Positions 10,058 through 58,179 of a stretch of 64,000 nt of DNA are shown piece by piece. A model generated the notes under the pieces. It saw only the letters and a list, made by a program, of their open reading frames with translations. It was not told the origin of the DNA and did not search any database. Every line of letters begins with the position of its first letter. Positions within the stretch are counted from its first letter, which is position 1. The position numbers and the translations under genes are program-made. The DNA is from Paraphysoderma sedebokerense (taxonomy: Eukaryota > Blastocladiomycota > Physodermatomycetes > Physodermatales > Physodermataceae), in assembly GCA_025602915.1 (NCBI GenBank), contig JAHLJZ010000005.1, forward strand, positions 124,001-188,000, written 5' to 3'.

Positions 10058-12930
10058 TTACTCTTCGTCACCATCCTTTCCCACCTTCTTTTTCTTTCGT
10101 TTTCCTTGCTTACTTTTACTTCTAGAACTTATTAATAGCATCGAAGCCTTCTTGATCGTTTCACGATCAGGTATATTGGTTTCGTCATCATCTTGGGCAT
10201 CGTCTTCTACGATTAAGCAAAATGTATTAAATTAAAAAATGGCGAAATTGTACGGTTATAACACACATCGAAAAAGCAGTAGGGATAAGAAGAAAGGAGT
10301 GCCGAGAAATTGAGCAAACGCGAAATTTGGATTGTACGCTGTTAAAGAATGAAAAAATAAATTGTTTAGAATGCTAAGAACGGAACTAACCGGCGTCTGA
10401 ATCAATCTCAAATTGAACAGAATGTAGTTTGACTCTACAATTGTATGTCGGTTGATGAATGGGGATTGAATGAAGTTCACCCTAGATATATGTGTCAAGA
10501 CAGTCATTTTAATGTAGATATAGAACAATTAGAGTTTGGGAAGGTATACTATAAATAAAAATAGAGTAACATACGTCGACCTTGATTTCTTTGTTTTGTA
10601 CTGTGCTTAATAAATACTCAATTTTCTGGATACATGATTCCATAGTCGGTATGACACTTTCATCGGTAATTGGACCAGTCGCATTTCGAGCTGGGGTTTT
10701 CTCACCTTGCTGCGTTGACGAAGAAAGATAACACAAATGACATACAGAAATTGGTGGGAAAGTAAGTAATAAGTACTGTTCTTACTAAATCTCACAACGT
10801 AATGGCAAAAAATACCATCACAACGCTCTCTAATTTGTCCATTATGTGTTGCAATCCTGCCTTTGCATTGTTCATCAGTTTCACCACCCTCTCGTATTTA
10901 ATCTTGAGGTCGGCACATCTCGCCATCTCGCCCTCTAGATGCTTTTCGAACTCTTCCATGATACCTTTATCCTTGTTGTGTTTTCCCTCTCCATTGAATT
11001 TAGCCTCCATGAGTTCATCGTGCATTTCTTTTCGTTTTTTCTTCAGTTCTTCAATTTTCTGTTCATTCGCAATTTGAAGTTGTGCTAAGTGCGTATGAGT
11101 ATCCCATTGGCTTTGAAATTTTTGTATAACTTCGTTCAAATTTGAGACCCCCATGGCTTCTTTAATGAGCCGAATAGTTTCTTCGTATTGACTAATTTGG
11201 CGTTCGCGGTCGTAATCGCTCGTGTCTTTTTGCGCATCAAATGGTGTTGGTTCAGCGGATGTGTCCGCGGTATTGAGTAGCCTGAATTCAAACTTTTCAG
11301 ATGCTTCGATCTTTTGGCGTACTTGCTCTTTTCGCACTTGCAAATCTTTTTCGCGAAATTTACGTTCTTCGTTAATTTGGGTTTCGAAACGAGTCAATTC
11401 AGCCTGTAAGATTGATCGGCAACAAGGGTGGATGTAATCGATGTATATCAGATTGAGTAGGAGTCTAACAATTTTCATTAAAATTAAATAGTGCATACTT
11501 TAGCCATTTCTTTGGCATGATTTGCGTCCCTGTTCATTGTTTCAATTTCTGAAGACTCTGTACGCTTCGTCTTTAGAGTTCGCTCAAATTGCGCTAACTG
11601 ATGATCAAACGTCAATCGCTCTTCTTGAAGTTTTTTCACAATCTGCTCGTACGTCTTGCGAATAGATTGAGCTTCATTAAACTTGATGTGAGCTTTGTCG
11701 AGACGATTTTCAAGTTGATGGATTTCCTGAGTGGTATTGTCGACAGATAGTTGATAAAATATGTTACCATATGTAAATAGATTTTACACCATACAGTGAT
11801 AGGAAACTCATAGTTAGTTTCCATCTCTCTCTTCTTCCTTTCAGACAAACTCGTCAAACCTTGTCAACTTCCGTTGCTCCTTCTTTCCCGTTGAATATTT
11901 CCGCTTCTTTTCTCAGATCATCCAGCTGATCTTGCATTTCACTTAACTTTTCTTCTTTAGCTCGAACTAATGATTGCATGTCGTCATGTTTTTTGTGTAA
12001 TTCGCATATCCGTTGATCCATTTTTTCGAGATCTGTCATCGCGAATTGATTAGGGTTGTCGATTCGATCAAAATTCGATTGCTAATTTAGTTTATAGAAG
12101 AATATTGGAAGCAATGATTCATTAATGCAGCTGATAAGAAAAATGAAATAAAATTCATCGGTCTATCATGTCATTTCGGCTGAAATGATGAAGTCACCAC
12201 ATCTTCAAATATTTAGACCGCCGAAAAGAACCAACTATGCCTTATTCTACATAATACTATCACAATTTCAAATCCAGAATGCAAACCTTTTTCAGTTTGG
12301 ATAGCGACTCCCGCAATTCCTTATTGTGCGATCTCAACTTTGCAATCTCTTCTTTATTCTGTCGAATCGCCCATTGGCTAGTTTCATAATACGCTTTACG
12401 ATCTCCCTCTTTTATATTTTCAATTCCAGTAAAGAGAATCGTTTGTCATAGAGATAATTGACATATTTGAGTAACAGTGGATAGGCGTGAAGTTGAGTAG
12501 GGCATGAGTGGTTGAGAATGAACATTCACAAGTTGCAAGGTTCGGGTGAATTACGTCGACCACCATGAATGTTTGACAGATAATATCGAAGTAGGAGAAC
12601 ATAAAACATGTCATCAATATGGAAGTCAAGCATATAGATACAGTGAGATAATTTGATAATGTTTTAAGTCGAAGCTACAAGGTCGATTAAGTAAGTTGAA
12701 CGAGACAAACCCAACAATTCTAACCGCATCTTCAAATCCTGGATCTCCTCCTCCATCAAACCCTGTTTATCTAGTTGCCGCATTTCAGTAACGGAGAGTC
12801 TTGATTGATAACGCTGACAATGTTGCTATTTAAGATAAATGCCTTTTGTACATTTAACTGCAAACGCGAAGGAACGCGAAGTCCAATTACGTAGATCTTC
12901 ACACAGATTTACAGACACTGCGGCAGACAT
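10058..12930 (-). CDS. Outer dynein arm docking complex subunit ODAD3 (CCDC151-like)
   Basis: This multi-exon gene encodes a long coiled-coil protein. Blocks are colinear with animal CCDC151/ODAD3: an N-terminal EGDRKAYYETSQWAIRQNKE (about 12400-12340), a central coiled coil (about 12040-11400), AMGVSNLNEVIQKFQSQWDT with the following ELKKKRKEMHDEL (about 11150-11020), a YNCRVKL block (about 10440), and a basic Lys/Arg-rich tail ending at the stop at 10058. ODAD3 anchors outer dynein arms to axonemal doublets, so its presence implies a motile flagellum. The first exon is uncertain: ATG 12930 with a donor near 12912 fits in frame, but other starts are possible. It is convergent with SYF1. Confidence 0.82.
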
Positions 12931-27272: not shown

Positions 27273-30085
27273 CTAAACTTTCTCAATCGCATTAAAAGTA
27301 CTCAAACAAACCGCAAACCCAATCAACGGAGTCAACGGGTTCCTCGCGTCTAATGTGAACGAGTCTTTGGCGATTCGACCGAATTGGAGGTGAACTTTTG
27401 AATCTAAGATACATTTACACACAAAACAAAGACGAACAAATGACAAAAAGGGAATATTTTGAGTGGTTAGAATGGGAAGTTGAGTGAATATGATGAGGTG
27501 ATGAGGTGATGAGGTGATGAGGTGGTGCAGAAAGTGGAGTAGTTACTTACCGGAAGATGAAGGATGATCAACGATCAATTGGAAATTTTTTACACTCGGT
27601 ACAGTGACTCGACCGCCAAAATTGAGGCAATAAGTTTTCAATGCTTCATTGAAAATTCATTCAATTCATATTAGATTCACCAAATCATCAAAACATCGAG
27701 ACATCAAAGAGTCAAAATGGTACCGTTAGTGCCCATTGACACGCCAGAATCCTTAACAGAAATCAAGAATAAAAAAACTAACCAGGATTATATTTCGGTA
27801 ATTTATTCTTCATCAACACGATAGACTGACCGCTATTCCCAAGTTCCTCGGTCAACCGCGCCATTTGATTCCGCATATTATGTTCCGTGAGTTTGGTGAG
27901 TACAGTCGGATTAATCTATCATTTAGACGAAAAAAAAAAAAAAAAAAAAGAAAAATTAGACACCTCAACGTAACAATTATTTCGAGAAAGACTAAAGTAT
28001 AATAAAGAAACCTGGTCACCGGATTTGACTGCCGCCGCGACAAATATTTGACGAGGGATCGCATTCGAACTCTGATTCAAGAATCAATGATAAATAATCA
28101 GTGAGGAATCTCAAAAGTTTGCGTTGGGTTGTATAATACATAATGATAATGAATTGAACAATATTGATCAACGTACGTAACGAATAAACGCGATTAATTT
28201 TCCAGTCGAAAGTTCAATCAACTTGAATTCTGATCCTTGATAGTTTCCTCTTTTTGACACAAACATAACCCAAGAGTAAAAAAAAAAAAGTAAGAACACG
28301 AATCAATCAATTCCCAAGTTTAAAAAGAAAGTGGAACCCTCATACTTTAATTTCCATCCGGCGTCTTCGGTTCTTCCATGTTCCATGACCCCACCCACGG
28401 CGATATAAAAAACAGGTTTCATATTCATCTTGATGAATCTACGTGCTGTAAACATCGTCGTACCAGATTGTTCATTTTGAATCGTAAACAACGGTTGCGA
28501 GGTCAAGGATGATTTGGAACGAGAAATAATTGAACGAAGGAGAGAGTTGGGTTGGATTTGTCTTTTCGTATTGAAGTTTTGGAAAAAAAGGGGTAAGAAT
28601 TAGTTGAATTAGTTTTAGTCGAACGTAATGAATGTGTAGAAAATACGACATACTCTAATGGGTTCGCGTCACTCGCGAGTTCTTCATTCAAATTGTCATC
28701 CAACGTCTCGATTGTATCATCTTGGATAACCCCGTCTACGATCTCTTCTTCATCGTGAATAATAGTATACACTTCCTCCGCTTTCGTCGTATCTATAACC
28801 ACTGTTTCGTCTCGTCTGAAATCATTCAATTCATTCAATTGATCACGATCGTCGTTCGCTTTTTGATCGAATACATCGTTTTTACTGTCTACTCTGATAG
28901 TATCTGTTCGTTCTGGTTCTATAATCACCGGTGCATGAATTTGGTGGTCTACGTCGTCGGGAATTTCGGTTGCGGGTTTAGATGGGGTAGAGGAAGAAAC
29001 TGTCGATGTTGGGTTCTGTTGTTCTTGTTCCTGTGAAACTTGAGAAGAACCAAGACTCAACACGTCAATGTTGATCGGAACGGATGAGGTTTGCGTAGGT
29101 TGAGACTCGGATTGAAAAATTTGTCCTATTGTGGGTGATTTCCGTACGAAAATACCAGTTTAGTGAATCATTACCTTTAAGACACAAAAATCAAACAGTT
29201 AAATGACGTACCAACTACACCCCTTCGTTTTCTGGCTTGATTGTACTTTTTAGTAGCCTCAATCTTTAATGTTGCAGCGGCCCTAGAATTAGATGCCACT
29301 TTCATCTCTCCTTTGGCTCCTCCGTTTGCACTTTTTGTATCCTGATTCACTATATCCTGATCTACAACTTTACCACCGCCAAGTTTGTCATCAAATTCAG
29401 GTTCAAGATCTCCATCGGCATTTTCTTTCCCTACCTCACCGTTCACAGCCGCGACAATGTCATCGGGCAACGGGGCAATTTTAGAACGAGACTCCACCCT
29501 CCCAGATTCAGCTTCAACATCCCCACCAACTTTTTCTTTTCCCATCTCATCGTTCACAGCCGGAATAGCGCCGTCAGGTGTCAGAGTATCTCTAGAAGGA
29601 GACTCTAAAGTCCCAGATTCGGATTTTTTTTCCGAGGATTTTAGGCGGTTATAGAGTTTATATAAATGTGCTGATTTATAAAATCAATAAAGAAAAGTAA
29701 AAAAATGAGAATCAGTGGTGGAAGAATAACGGATCAATGATAGGATGTGCAATGGGAGTCGTGGTTGTCGTGGTTAGTGATTCACAGTTTACTTGGAATT
29801 GAGAAAACATGGTCAAATCAGAGATCAAAGATATGGTACATACATATATCGGAATTAGCATATACATCTTCCTTTTGAGGTCTTCACATATTCCACGGAG
29901 CAAAAAACCAATAAAAAAAGGAATATCAAGGTTAGCAACGACAATACCCATTCATGGATCACGTAACCCGAAGAACCAAGGGATGTAAGAGAGAGAAAGA
30001 AATTGTACCGTCTGCCGTGGTCGATTTCGAATTGTCGTTCCCAGCGTTTAATCAGATCTTTGAGGTACTTTGCGTTGACGTTCAT
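27273..30085 (-). CDS. Sld2/RecQL4-N-like and tubby-domain fusion protein
   Basis: Ten exons keep phase at every junction: 30085-30009, 29881-29844, 29670-29212, 29125-28654, 28561-28346, 28249-28177, 28071-28012, 27915-27783, 27643-27551 and 27403-27273, for 583 residues. Residues about 7-52 match the Sld2/RecQL4 N-terminal module: LIKRWERQFEIDHGRRPQKE, then LYKLYNRLK; RecQL4 has an AWERAF...GRRP...LY..Y..LK pattern. Residues 60-340 are acidic and low-complexity. The C-terminus ends like a tubby domain: LNFGGRVTVPSVKNFQ, then LQFGRIAKDSFTLDARNPLT and GFAVCLSTF. Tubby domains bind phosphoinositides and often serve cilia; Sld2 modules act in replication initiation. No helicase domain is present. 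Function is open. Confidence 0.8.
27491..27522 (+). repeat. Four copies of an 8-bp repeat in an intron
   Basis: TGATGAGG is repeated four times in tandem. It lies inside the last intron of the tubby-domain gene (27404-27550). Confidence 0.8.
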
Positions 30086-31302: not shown

Positions 31303-31329
31303 ATTATCCTTTTGCGTCGCTTCACCACT

Positions 31330-32823
31330 ATGAAGCTACAAAGAACCACACCTCGAAAAAACTGGCAACAACTTGTAGAATCCCAAGGCTTACTCTACCA
31401 TACCCAACCGAACACTAAAGCGCCTTATTGGGTCGAGGATATATTCATCAGCCTGAACCCTCCCGAACTTGAAAATCTCAAAAGTGTAATCAACTCACTC
31501 CATTCTTTATGTTTATCCGCTATCCCTTCAATCCTTGAATCAAGGGATACATTATCACACTACTTTCAACTTCCCGAAATATTCCATGAATACTTTATAT
31601 CAAGTTGGATTCATCATCAAAACAACGACGGAATGGATACACTCTATGGACGATTCGATTTGGCGTTTGATGAAAACAATGTACCAAAAATGTTGGAGTA
31701 CAATGCAGATACACCGACTTCTTTGATCGAAGCTGCTGTAGTTCAACGTGAATGGGCTTTAGATTGTTTCAATGGCGATTCAAAGCAGTGGAATCAAATT
31801 GAAGACTCGCTGATATCTACATGGTCGAAATTGCATTCACGGTATTCTCGTCTCCGATTAGACAGGACGGAGAATATGGTCGACCGGTTACCTCAAAACA
31901 GATGCAAACTTCATACGAGTTGTATAAAATCACATATGGAAGATTACCAAACTACCCGGTACATCGAATACACTGCATCCGAAGCAGGTTGGGACACTGG
32001 GTTCATTTATATCGAAGATGTAGGATGGAACGACGACAAAAAGACATTTGTAGATTTAAATGAAGACGAGATTCAATCCTGGTTTAAATTGTATCCCTGG
32101 GAATGGCTTCTTAAGGAATCATTTGGTCAAAATCTATTGTCGGTATGTTCAGTTTAGTTTAACATTTTTGTCGTTTTTGCCAGAGATATAATTTATACTG
32201 GTATTCAATCTAAGTCACCGAATTTAAATGTCATCGAACCGCCCTGGAAATTGTTACTCTCCTGTAAATCAATTCTACCGGTTCTACACCACCTCTATCC
32301 TTCGCACCCAAATCTACTCCCGTCGTACTTTGCCTCGTCGTCGTCTCCACCGTCCGACTCTGCCCCTCGATACCCAAACTTCAAAATTTCAAGTCCCACA
32401 AATCCACTGCTAGATCATTACGTCTCAAAACCGATATACGGTCGTGAAGGCTCCAATATTTCTATTTATTCTGCTACTCCTCCGACATCCTCGCTCGATC
32501 ATACTTCATCACATCCCGCAAAATTGTTATACAATACATCAGGTCCATACACTCTACAAACAACTCCTGTTATCCATCAACAATCTCTTTACTCCTTCCA
32601 TACTGAAAAATCAAGTTTCATCGCACCATTCGGACCAAATTTAAAATCAGGGGAAAATATCGGACTTGGATTTGGACTTGGAGAAGGACCGTTGGAAGGG
32701 TATTACCCCGTTATCGGGGGTTGGGTTGTAGATCATTGTGCTGTCGGATTGGGAATTCGAATTGATCGGAAACCAGTGACTGGTGATGATAGTTGGTTTG
32801 TGCCTTGGATTGTAGATGGTTAG
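31330..32823 (+). CDS. Glutathionylspermidine synthase-like ATP-grasp protein
   Basis: Three exons (31330-31841, 31902-32142, 32215-32823) join in phase to 453 residues. The protein matches the GSP_synth family (E. coli YgiC/YjfC type). Evidence: YGRFDLAFDENNVPKMLEYN followed by ADTPTSLIEA, then KLHTSCIKSHMEDYQTTRYI, LYPWEWLLKE, EPPWKLLLSCKSILPVL, HPNLLPSYF and a C-terminal VIGGWVVDHCAVGLGIR. These are ATP-grasp ligases; free-standing members probably form a peptide-like bond on an unknown substrate. There is no CHAP amidase domain. The first intron is 60 nt and read-through stays in frame, so retention would insert 20 residues. Bacterial affinity makes old gene transfer possible. Confidence 0.85.
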
Positions 32824-34843: not shown

Positions 34844-36153
34844 TCATCCAAATCTAGCCAATCGTAACCTCCTCAGCTCGTCTGCTCCCATTTCCTTATT
34901 CTCTGGCTTCCCTGCATCAGCTAAGCTGGCGGCAATAGCAGCACTGAGTTCCAAATCTTCATCTGTTATTCCATCTATCGAATCTACACCAGTCTTGGCG
35001 TTTATCCCATTTTGGGAATCAGACGAAGCAGAAAGTTTATATCCTTGCCCACTGAAACTTTTCTTCTCGGAGGATTGCGAGGTTGCAGATGTAGGTGATG
35101 CAAGTTCTGGAGGCGGAGTGTCTGGTAATGTCATTGCGATCTCATCGGCCGATGAAGGGGGTAGTATTCCACGAACGATAAAAATAGAGTATCCTGGTTT
35201 CGATTATTTCAATTGGACGTTAATTGATGTTAAAATCGTCGCACACAACTGCTAATTTCTTTCCGGCCAACAAATCATGCAGGAAAATTTAGGAAAAAAG
35301 ATATTTCATACCATCCAGTTGTGCTTGACTCAGCAACATGTGTAGATACGTCTCCGATATCCATGTTGGCTTCGATTGAGTTGAATTTAAATTGTACCAC
35401 CGTTTATGAAATCTTCTTATCGTGTACCCTATTCATAACAATATAACAATCATTTCATAGACAATGTGAGATTTAAACCAAAGGAAGTTAGCAAGAGTTA
35501 AGAGCCAACGTTAGCTTCTTTGCAGCTCAATGGTATTCGAGAAAGAGATACTAACAATGTTCAGACTGGTTGCATATGTAAGCAATCTCTTTATGAGGAT
35601 TATCCCTCGCAGTCTTGCCCGCTTCACTGGCGTATGATATTAACTCCAGATTCCATACTTTGAGTGCGCTTTGTATGACCTAAGTTCACACGAAGGGTTT
35701 AGTTTTGGTGAGCTTCTATCGAAAATGGCAGAGTATAGAAATGTATATATTGCAAAGTTTCATCTGCGATATTACGTACTTGTACGGAAAAGAATCCAGA
35801 ATCATCAAAGTTAGAAGACCCTTCTTTCAAGTACTGTTCGTAATCAGAAGCCGAGCCTTTCGCTATTTCCTGCATTTCTTTCGCATCCAGTTCTCGTGCA
35901 ATTTCTGACAAATCCACAGCGGTAAAATACGGCCCTATTTGAAAGTTTATAGGGTAGTTTAGACAAATTTATCACAGAATTGTTGAACCAGAAGTGAAAG
36001 CACCTTGAAGAAGGGAATTGAGGGCATGTTGGGCACAGAGGCTGCCTTCTTGCTGCGTTATGGCAAGTTAGAGATGGAAAAATGACAGTCATAAAATGGT
36101 CTGAATTGAGCATGTACCTTCTCGTGAAAGATATATGGTATTAAATCTGACAT
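34844..36153 (-). CDS. Ataxin-3-like Josephin deubiquitinase
   Basis: The first exons are 36153-36118, 36052-36004, 35934-35780 and 35679-35556, with a fifth starting at 35428; they join in phase. The Josephin domain has all three catalytic residues: Cys18 in QEGSLCAQHALNSLL, His121 in EHWYTIRRF, and Asn136 in WYNLNST. Other family blocks are YFTAVDLSEIARELD and NFDDSGFFSVQ. The C-terminal part carries a ubiquitin-interacting motif (DEDLELSAAIAASLADA) and ends ELRRLRLARFG. It should trim ubiquitin chains in protein quality control. There is no polyglutamine tract. The last splice junctions are approximate. Confidence 0.9.
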
Positions 36154-44675: not shown

Positions 44676-47600
44676 ATGGGATTTTTGACTGTAGTAGAAA
44701 TTCTGTCGTCTTTTGCTCAGGTGTGTAGTAATATATCTCTAACTGCCCGTTTAACCGATATCCTACCAATAACCGATCCTGATTTCCATTTTATCTCCAG
44801 TATTTGGGAATTATAGGGAGCGTAAAGATCAATTGGCCTCCGGAGTTTGCTTTCGTCGGTCAATATGTAACTTGATACCTTTCTTTACAATTGTTATTTC
44901 CTTGCGCTGAGTCTCAACTCATTCGTCCATCGTATCAAAACTGCATCCACATGTATGCCAATCACTTTGACAGTTACGATATCTCCGAATCGATTTTAGT
45001 ATACCAATGCCGAGATTGAATATACCCGCTTTAGATCATCGAGCTCAGCATATTATTCTGTCTAATCTGGTGCCCTTAGCGACAACTCTCATTTTGCTGG
45101 TCTTTTTCAAAACATTCAAGGTCGTGATCTGGTATGCTGCTCTATTGTTTGGATTGGGAGTTGCCGTAGCAGGTATGTTTCTTGGTACTATGTACTTATA
45201 TCTACGCAAAAACAAACTTTTCCGATGGTGGATCATAACGTCGTTCAATCATTGTTTCAATCGTCGGTAGGAATTGTATTAAAGGTTTTACCAAGAGGAA
45301 GGTTTTCTGGGGACTCGAATCTTGCAGATTATTTCCTTTTGGGCGGATTCGGCGGCGTAGGACTACTCCTGGTAATTTATATGATTCAAGACCTCTACAA
45401 CAAGCGTCGTCGCAATAAGGTGCAAGTACTGGCAATCTGAGTGATCGACTCATTGGCTTATAATCCTCATTTTTGTCAATATTGCAGGTCGTGCCCTTGA
45501 AGGAATCGGACAGTGATAGAAATCGCATCAGTCGCAGCAGCCTTGTGCAAGAAGATGAAAATAACGAATCGCAATTCTCTCCGAATTTAGCTATAATTAG
45601 AGCTAAAAATCGATATGCAAAGAAAGCCTTTTGGAAAATGACAAGAAACTTCTTGTTAGCGTTAATATTGATTATAGTTGGTTCGATCGCTAGCGGGGCC
45701 CACATAGAATGGTTGAAGAAAGAGTTTTATTATTATCACAATATAGAGGTGGCTACATGTTTCTCATTATAGCTAAATTACATGTTGTTTAAGTACTTTC
45801 TGTTTAGCAGAGCGCAGTCCGAACGATTGGCTCCACGGTTGGTGGTATAATGATAGCTCTTGGAAGTATCTTGATGTATAACTGGATTACTGGAAATTTT
45901 AAATGGGTAGGTTCAACATACCAGAAATAGGCTACTATAACCCTGCAGTGAATGTTATTACTTTAGGGTCGCCGATTTAACGCCCGATTAAATTACATAT
46001 TCCGAAAAAATGTTGCCAAATTCACTTTGTTGATCTTAGGAATTCTTTATATTCCAATGACAACTTCTATTTTGAGTATGACCAATTGCGAATGGGTTAC
46101 TTGTCCTGCTGGCACGTCAATTTTTCCGAAGTTTCAATGGTTTTTATATCGGTTAACCGTCACCAATAGAACACGAATTCCCGCTGCGGTCTGTGCAGCT
46201 CGGTAAATGTCACATGATACTCATGCTCTGATGGACGAGCTTATGAACGTTATTTTTCAGACGTCACTTCGATAGCGTCAGATTTCCAACGAAATATTAG
46301 CAACGGCACAGTCTGTTCTTCGTGTTCGTTCAACCCATCGTGGTGTCCCATAGCGTCCGAGTTATGTCCAGAAACTCAAGATCTGCGATTGGTAATCTTC
46401 CATTAACAATTGCTACCGCGAGTTACAGTCTCACACAATACAATCGAATTTTTAGGTTAAAAATAACTCGTTCTCTTGTACGAGAGAGATATATCCGTAT
46501 TATTTACCAGGCGCTGTACTCATGTTTATTACCATAACTGTTGGAGTTCCACGTAAATCTTCTTTTTACGTATACGTCAAGAATGTTTGGGAACTAAAAA
46601 CCACGTTCAGTGATATTCTACAAACTTATATCAGTTTCGACTCGCTACGTAACCGAGATACCTGCCGAGGGTGATACCCCAACCGAAAAATGGAGATCAC
46701 AATGTCTATCATCGAGCAACAGCTGCCGATCTCTTTATTCTATGTTCAGATACAGGTGGTGAGTGATTTTATCCTGATTTTATCTATGCTTCCGGACATC
46801 AAAGATATCAGCATTTGACGTGTTCAAATTAACAGGCGATACTACAAACTATTTGCGATTATCCACAAACTAGCCTTGGTCGCAATCTTTATTTATGGGA
46901 CAAATAACTCCTTCTTGCTGGTCGCGAGTTTAGCAGCTTCGCACAGTTTGTTTGCTGCGTTGTCCATTTACAGCAGTCCATACGTCAGTAAGGCCGAGGT
47001 ATCGATTCTTCAATTACTCCATAATCCTGAGCACCCGATAACAGAGTTGAATTTCTCAGGATTTCCTAGCCACAAGTTGCCTCTTAGTGAATGCCGCGAA
47101 TGCGATAATTGCCCTTCTAATTGCCATGAATTACAAATTGTCTAGCGAAATTGCCTATGCAGTAGCCATACTGAACATTGCTGCTCCGATATTAGCAGTG
47201 TGTGTGGGGTTTTATGCGGAGTACAGAGACTACCAGAAAATGCAAGAAAGAAAACGGCAGAAAATGGAGGATCTTGAAGAGAAAATATCCGCCCAGGCAT
47301 CTGCGAATCAGTTAAGCATAAACGAGAGAAGTTCTGCAATTCAAGACGGGAACAATGAGGTAGGTTTCCCTAATAAGCACATAAATCTGAATATTTAACA
47401 TTAATATGGCTATATAAAAGTTAATTGATAGTCTCGATCAAGAACTCGATGCACGACTTTCAAAACTTTTGGTTAATTTTTTCCTCTACATGGGGATAGC
47501 TGCGTTTTTGTCACTTTGCGTTGTGGCAATTGGAATAATACAACTCACTAGTAACGGAGATCTGATTCATGGAGATTTTCCGGGAAATGTTGGCGTCAAT

Positions 47601-56634: not shown

Positions 56635-58179
56635 TTAACACTCTTCCGGGCGTGTTCGGTATCCCGCTGACGGTCTCTCCACTGATCCATTCTCGTGTCT
56701 GGGCCCATCCCAGCAGCTCAAGTTGGTCAATCCTGGATAATCTCTTGCATCTGATCTACTGTCTACGTCTGATACATATCTCGGAGAACCCAATGAGTAC
56801 TCTGAACTGGGGGATAGTAGGTCCTTTGAATTGAAATCGGAGGATGTGGATGGACGATAGTCAACGTCTGAAGCTTTGGACAAATTGGCGGGGTAAAATG
56901 GATCATAACGTTGCGAAGTTGCGGACAGTGGAGGATAATTAAAAGAGTCGGTGGGAGTCGGGAGTGATGAGCTAGGAGATGAAAGCTGCGAAGTACTTGT
57001 TCGTGCACTATTATGCTCGACTGCTACCGGTGAAACAAATGAACCCTTTAGATGATATAGAATAGTTTTGTAAGCGAATGAATCACTTACATTGTGCACT
57101 CGGCGCTGGGATCGTTGGATCAAAGATATTGGGTGTGAAATTCGCTTTCTGTGGAGAGCCTTGCTGGAACTGTTGCTTCTGCTCTTGCTGCTGCTTTTGT
57201 TGCGCCTTCTGCTGCTTGAGCAACGGTTGCAAGATGCGGCGACGTGCATTGATAAACCAATTATTTATCTGGTGAACAGTAAGACCAGTTTGTTGTGCCA
57301 GTGTTAGTTTTTCCTGGTCAGTCGGATAGGGGTTGGTACAATGTGCCTGAAAGAAGAATCAAATGTCATTCACCATTTTGGATACCAGGAAATGGAAAGG
57401 CAAATACGAACCAGTAGCCAATTTTTTAGAATATTTGTACTTTCTTTTGGAAGATATACTCTCTTTTTCCTCGGACTGATAGATGACGAATCCAGAATTG
57501 GTGGAGGATACATCTGAGATTGTCGATGTTGTCTCTGGTAGTTAAGCATGCCAGAACTTGAGGAGCTGGATGGTGGATATGATCCAACGGTATTGGAAGG
57601 ATGAAAACGGTGCGAATGAGTTGTGTTTGTGGAGTGATGACCATTTCTAATTGCACTTCCACCGCCAGCATTCCTTCCGGCATAGTATTCTCCCCCTGAT
57701 GCAGACGTTGGCGATCCTGCTCCAATCCCGTTTTGTACATTTTGGATATATGAGTGATTACGATAGTAATGATCTACATTCGAGGGTGGAGCACGTTGGC
57801 CATTGGGATTCGGATTGTAATGACCATAGTTTGTCGATGGAAAAGATGCTTGAAAAGGTTCAGAGTGTGGTAAATCAGAAGGAAGACTGTGTCGCCGATA
57901 AGATGCCGATCCAAATAACGCATAGTCTGAGGGTACCAGGAATTTAAATCATTCAATTTAGATTAGCTTATCACAAGAAATCGAGAGAGTGAAATCCATG
58001 TACATCGATACATGAACAGAAAGAATACAAAAATAACTATGCTACTGACCTGGGGTTTTTTCCCTCCAAGATGGCATGAAGGATATGCCGGAATCATGAG
58101 GAGACATGGAAGGACGAGAGGACTGGACATAGAGCTGAAGCTGCTGAGCGTCTGACATGTATCTTTGATGGGATTGCAT
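56635..58179 (-). CDS. TALE-class homeodomain transcription factor
   Basis: Several exons encode a protein that starts at ATG 58179 ([20 protein letters not shown]). The homeodomain crosses an intron near 57410-57350: [18 protein letters not shown], then [20 protein letters not shown], then [18 protein letters not shown]. The PYP insertion in the loop between helices 1 and 2 defines the TALE superclass (Meis/PKNOX and yeast Cup9/Tos8), and WFINARRR is the recognition helix. A Gln/Lys-rich coil follows. The flanks are Ser/Pro-rich and probably disordered. It should bind DNA in the nucleus; targets are unknown. It is divergent from the SAAL1-like gene across a 944-bp region. Confidence 0.88.

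Follow-up and report, generated by a model that had tools for sequence, protein, structure and literature searches.

A minus-strand gene (30085..27273) was rebuilt from the sequence of a 64,000-nt stretch of Paraphysoderma sedebokerense DNA, hereafter the window. The model comprised ten exons and encoded exactly 583 residues, with the stop codon at 27273. Its nine introns were all GT-AG, measured 86-173 nt and kept the phase at each junction, reproducing the structure proposed in the first-pass annotation. Splicing was inferred from the sequence and from domains spanning most of the junctions. The predicted protein is laid out as an Sld2/RECQL4-type helical module (aa 7-57), a linker of ~290 residues and a tubby domain (about aa 370-583), and both domains are very probably present in one continuous reading frame. 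The features are as follows.

30009..30085, minus strand: exon 1, start codon at 30085 and opening part of the Sld2 module (Pfam Drc1-Sld2 match, aa 7-57)
29844..29881, minus strand: exon 2, Sld2 module, within the Pfam match
29212..29670, minus strand: exon 3, last part of the Sld2 module (aa 39-57), then the linker's first half; 4-19 stops in the other five frames
29222..29251, minus strand: basic run KKYNQARKRR (aa 179-188), read from the sequence, the sole basic cluster noted in the linker
28654..29125, minus strand: exon 4, second half of the linker; 157 open codons, without ATG
28346..28561, minus strand: exon 5, start of the tubby domain, including K419 and the initial bases of the K421 codon, which align with tubby K330/R332
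28177..28249, minus strand: exon 6, tubby domain, from the alignment with PDB tubby sequences
28012..28071, minus strand: exon 7, tubby domain (Pfam Tub match, aa 437-578)
27783..27915, minus strand: exon 8, tubby domain, within the Pfam Tub match
27551..27643, minus strand: exon 9, tubby signature LNFGGRVTVPSVKNFQ, PDB tubby match
27273..27403, minus strand: exon 10, tubby signature LQFGRIAKDSFTLD, C-terminus and stop codon, PDB tubby match

Elsewhere in the window, a glutathionylspermidine synthase pre-ATP-grasp domain was located at 31303-32820 on the plus strand (E 1.2e-68), a family better known in bacteria and trypanosomatids. A Josephin deubiquitinase domain was found at 35702-35968 on the minus strand (E 1.7e-12), a membrane protein matching 8xMP weakly, under the cut-off (E 2.5e-4), at 45464-47395 on the plus strand, and a KN/TALE homeobox at 57086-57358 on the minus strand (E 1.4e-20). 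IGPD (histidine synthesis), Syf1 and importin beta were also present. An outer-dynein-arm docking coiled coil of the ODAD1 type lay at 10795-12081 on the minus strand (ODAD1_CC, E 5e-10). Together, the ODAD1-type gene and IGPD (HIS3-type) point to a flagellated fungus, and the organism, judged by its genes, probably has a flagellum and is likely a zoosporic fungus. The earlier suggestion that the fusion fits a coordination of flagellum and division is circumstantial; nothing ties the protein itself to the flagellum.

The N-terminal module matched Pfam Drc1-Sld2 (PF11719) at residues 7-57 with an E-value of 1.1e-14 (55.4 bits vs a curated cut-off of 28), and the first 80 residues searched alone against Pfam gave E 2.1e-16. 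The match covered only positions 3-53 of the 416 in the profile. A PDB sequence search of the N-terminus retrieved the RECQL4 N-terminus (2kmu, E 1.3e-4), and the pattern WER.F....GRRP...DV...LY..Y..LK was common to the N-terminus and human RECQL4, with 16/43 identities. No other Pfam family matched this module. Retention of the strict pattern in the absence of any competing Pfam family suggests that Sld2-type contacts are retained. The second Sld2 homology region, which is C-terminal, basic and aromatic and is common to RecQ4 (PMC4757822), was not detected at E up to 10 with the Pfam profile, which may be too weak to detect it; this region is missing or unrecognisable. Likewise, Pfam revealed no helicase family in the 583-residue product, so that the RecQ helicase which follows the Sld2 region in RECQL4 has no counterpart here.

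At the C-terminus, Pfam Tub (PF01167) matched residues 437-578 (E 5e-34; 118.6 bits vs a curated cut-off of 27), and a PDB sequence search returned tubby/TULP chains, the best being tubby 1s31 (E 4.3e-17). These results, together with those for the N-terminus, upheld both domain assignments of the first-pass annotation, whose translated model exceeded the curated cut-offs of the Drc1-Sld2 and Tub profiles; chance is far from accounting for either domain. An NCBIfam search gave zero matches. The beginning of the tubby domain, encoded by exon 5, has diverged and is not covered by the Pfam Tub match. In the alignment with PDB tubby sequences, K330/R332 of mouse tubby corresponded to K419/K421, with a change of R332 to K. 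Mutation of K330/R332 in mouse tubby weakens PI(4,5)P2 binding (PMC10445746). The lipid pocket thus aligned seems to be partly kept in the predicted protein, and the second, basic lipid site of the tubby domain appears basic in part only.

The linker between the two domains, 292 residues long, has an acidic composition (D 11.6%, E 9.9%, K 5.8%, R 4.1%) and is probably disordered. It contained three S/T-P sites compared to 2.2 expected (P 0.38), and clustered CDK sites of the kind seen in Sld2/Drc1 were not found. For comparison, phosphomimetic yeast Sld2 carried 8 of 11 possible substitutions (PMC13421386). Since the S/T-P count is near chance, CDK input is not indicated, and the cell-cycle kinase input suggested earlier is not supported; the acidic linker is also unlike the basic Sld2/RECQ4 region. 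The KKYNQARKRR run could act as a nuclear localisation signal.

The best overall reading is that one gene encodes an Sld2 module, a linker and a tubby domain in a protein that is membrane-tethered and then nuclear, to which we assign a probability of roughly 0.5. By analogy with animal tubby, the tubby domain would bind phosphoinositide via K419/K421 at the plasma or flagellar membrane and so retain the protein, which lipid hydrolysis or another signal, e.g. zoospore encystment, would then set free. Directed by the basic cluster, the freed protein would enter the nucleus and might there contact DNA or the MCM10/CMG initiation machinery through its homeodomain-like Sld2 module. This tether-release-nucleus mechanism is tentative and, taken as a whole, less likely than not. 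The first-pass annotation had linked the protein to replication licensing, but Sld2 works at a different step, namely origin firing and helicase activation, and does not count as a licensing factor (PMC13421386). It assists in recruiting GINS and is required for lagging-strand ejection from MCM (PMC13421386). A stronger version, in which the protein is the organism's Sld2 with its activity gated by phosphoinositide, would keep origins from firing as long as the protein is at the membrane, e.g. in the zoospore, which does not divide, and would lift the block at germination; we consider this improbable.

The main rival explanation holds that the protein is a DNA-binding regulator of the tubby family and not a replication factor, the homeodomain-like module of ~50 residues having been co-opted to bind nucleic acid or protein. 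Such a protein would serve as a membrane-tethered transcription regulator or a trafficking adaptor, and we regard this as a substantial possibility, short of even odds. The restriction of the Sld2 profile match to its first 50 residues and the acidic linker without CDK-site enrichment are both consistent with it. In addition, the 54 N-terminal residues of RECQL4 fold as a homeodomain-like bundle (PMC4757822), and tubby domains are counted among fungal transcription factors (PMC5415576). However, a module recruited for another purpose is harder to reconcile with the strict RECQL4-type pattern and with the lack of any other Pfam match.

That the Sld2 module and the tubby domain are encoded by a single gene is well supported by the predicted exon structure. 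The alternative, that two adjacent same-strand genes, one Sld2 and one tubby, were misjoined by the splice reading, draws on the frequency of same-strand neighbours and on splicing being inferred from sequence. The Drc1-Sld2 match spans introns 1 and 2 and stops within exon 3, whose frame continues; the Pfam Tub match spans introns 6 to 9, and the alignment with PDB tubby sequences extends across intron 5. Domain support is missing solely for introns 3 and 4, which lie in the linker; their lengths (86 and 92 nt) are like those of the others, and their donors (GTACGT and GTATGT) are strong, which argues against a misjoin. Exons were judged by stop counts and an overall codon score, synonymous codon bias being too weak for use. 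Exons 3 and 4 were each open for more than 150 codons in the predicted frame, with 3-19 stops in every other frame, and the codon score was highest in the predicted frame for both. At the window's stop frequency, 157 open codons would arise by chance with a probability of about 3e-4.

Exon 4 contains no in-frame ATG, and among all upstream ATGs, with a GTRNG donor required, exon 4 could be fed only by starts in the exon 3 frame and exon 5 by none; relaxing the donor rule to any GT added a few weak alternative start exons. The first ATG of exon 5 (28455) falls past the start of the tubby domain and would truncate its beginning. In favour of the two-gene alternative, two in-frame internal ATGs in exon 3 (aa 81 and aa 161) would permit a shorter tubby-only product, and an isoform starting at Met81 or Met161 is possible. 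Two separate genes are distinctly improbable, and the single product claimed earlier is sustained by the frame continuity of exon 3, the ATG-free exon 4 and the start-exon listing. An artefact of assembly or annotation, or a fusion in decay and not expressed, is highly improbable even though a single genome is involved, given ten exons that are all open and consistent in phase, intact domain signatures, and no tandem repeat at the joint where one was searched for.

The predicted one-gene protein is best read as a putative new domain combination and a candidate lipid-tethered Sld2-type factor. To our knowledge, the Sld2 module is known only as a stand-alone unit or in fusion with a RecQ helicase. 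None of the papers searched brought Sld2 and tubby together, and among those retrieved on tubby in chytrids or Batrachochytrium, none described such an architecture. Searches of viral_contigs and genome_contigs with tubby and Sld2 mini-alignments returned zero relatives, as expected of collections without eukaryotes. Tubby was described in 2014 as previously unreported in true fungi (PMC4133162) and was listed among fungal families in a 2017 survey (PMC5415576). If the fusion is true, it would suggest a direct path from membrane signalling to the start of DNA replication, and it could help to define the role of the minimal Sld2 module without the helicase or C-terminal region.

Compared with known systems, the predicted protein resembles RECQL4 (metazoan/plant RecQ4) in that an N-terminal Sld2-type module is fused to another large domain; here, however, that domain is tubby and not a RecQ helicase, and the Zn knuckle and basic RECQ4 region are not seen. 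With yeast and nematode Sld2/Drc1 it shares an N-terminal module that leads into a long stretch of low complexity, whereas it differs in its few CDK sites, its extra tubby domain and the lack of detected C-terminal Sld2 homology. Unlike Tubby and TULP1-3, it carries an Sld2 module at the N-terminus, shorter loops and a tubby domain whose beginning has diverged, but like them it places that domain at the extreme C-terminus behind a probably disordered N-terminal part, retains the signature motifs and, in the alignment, appears to keep two basic residues of the pocket.
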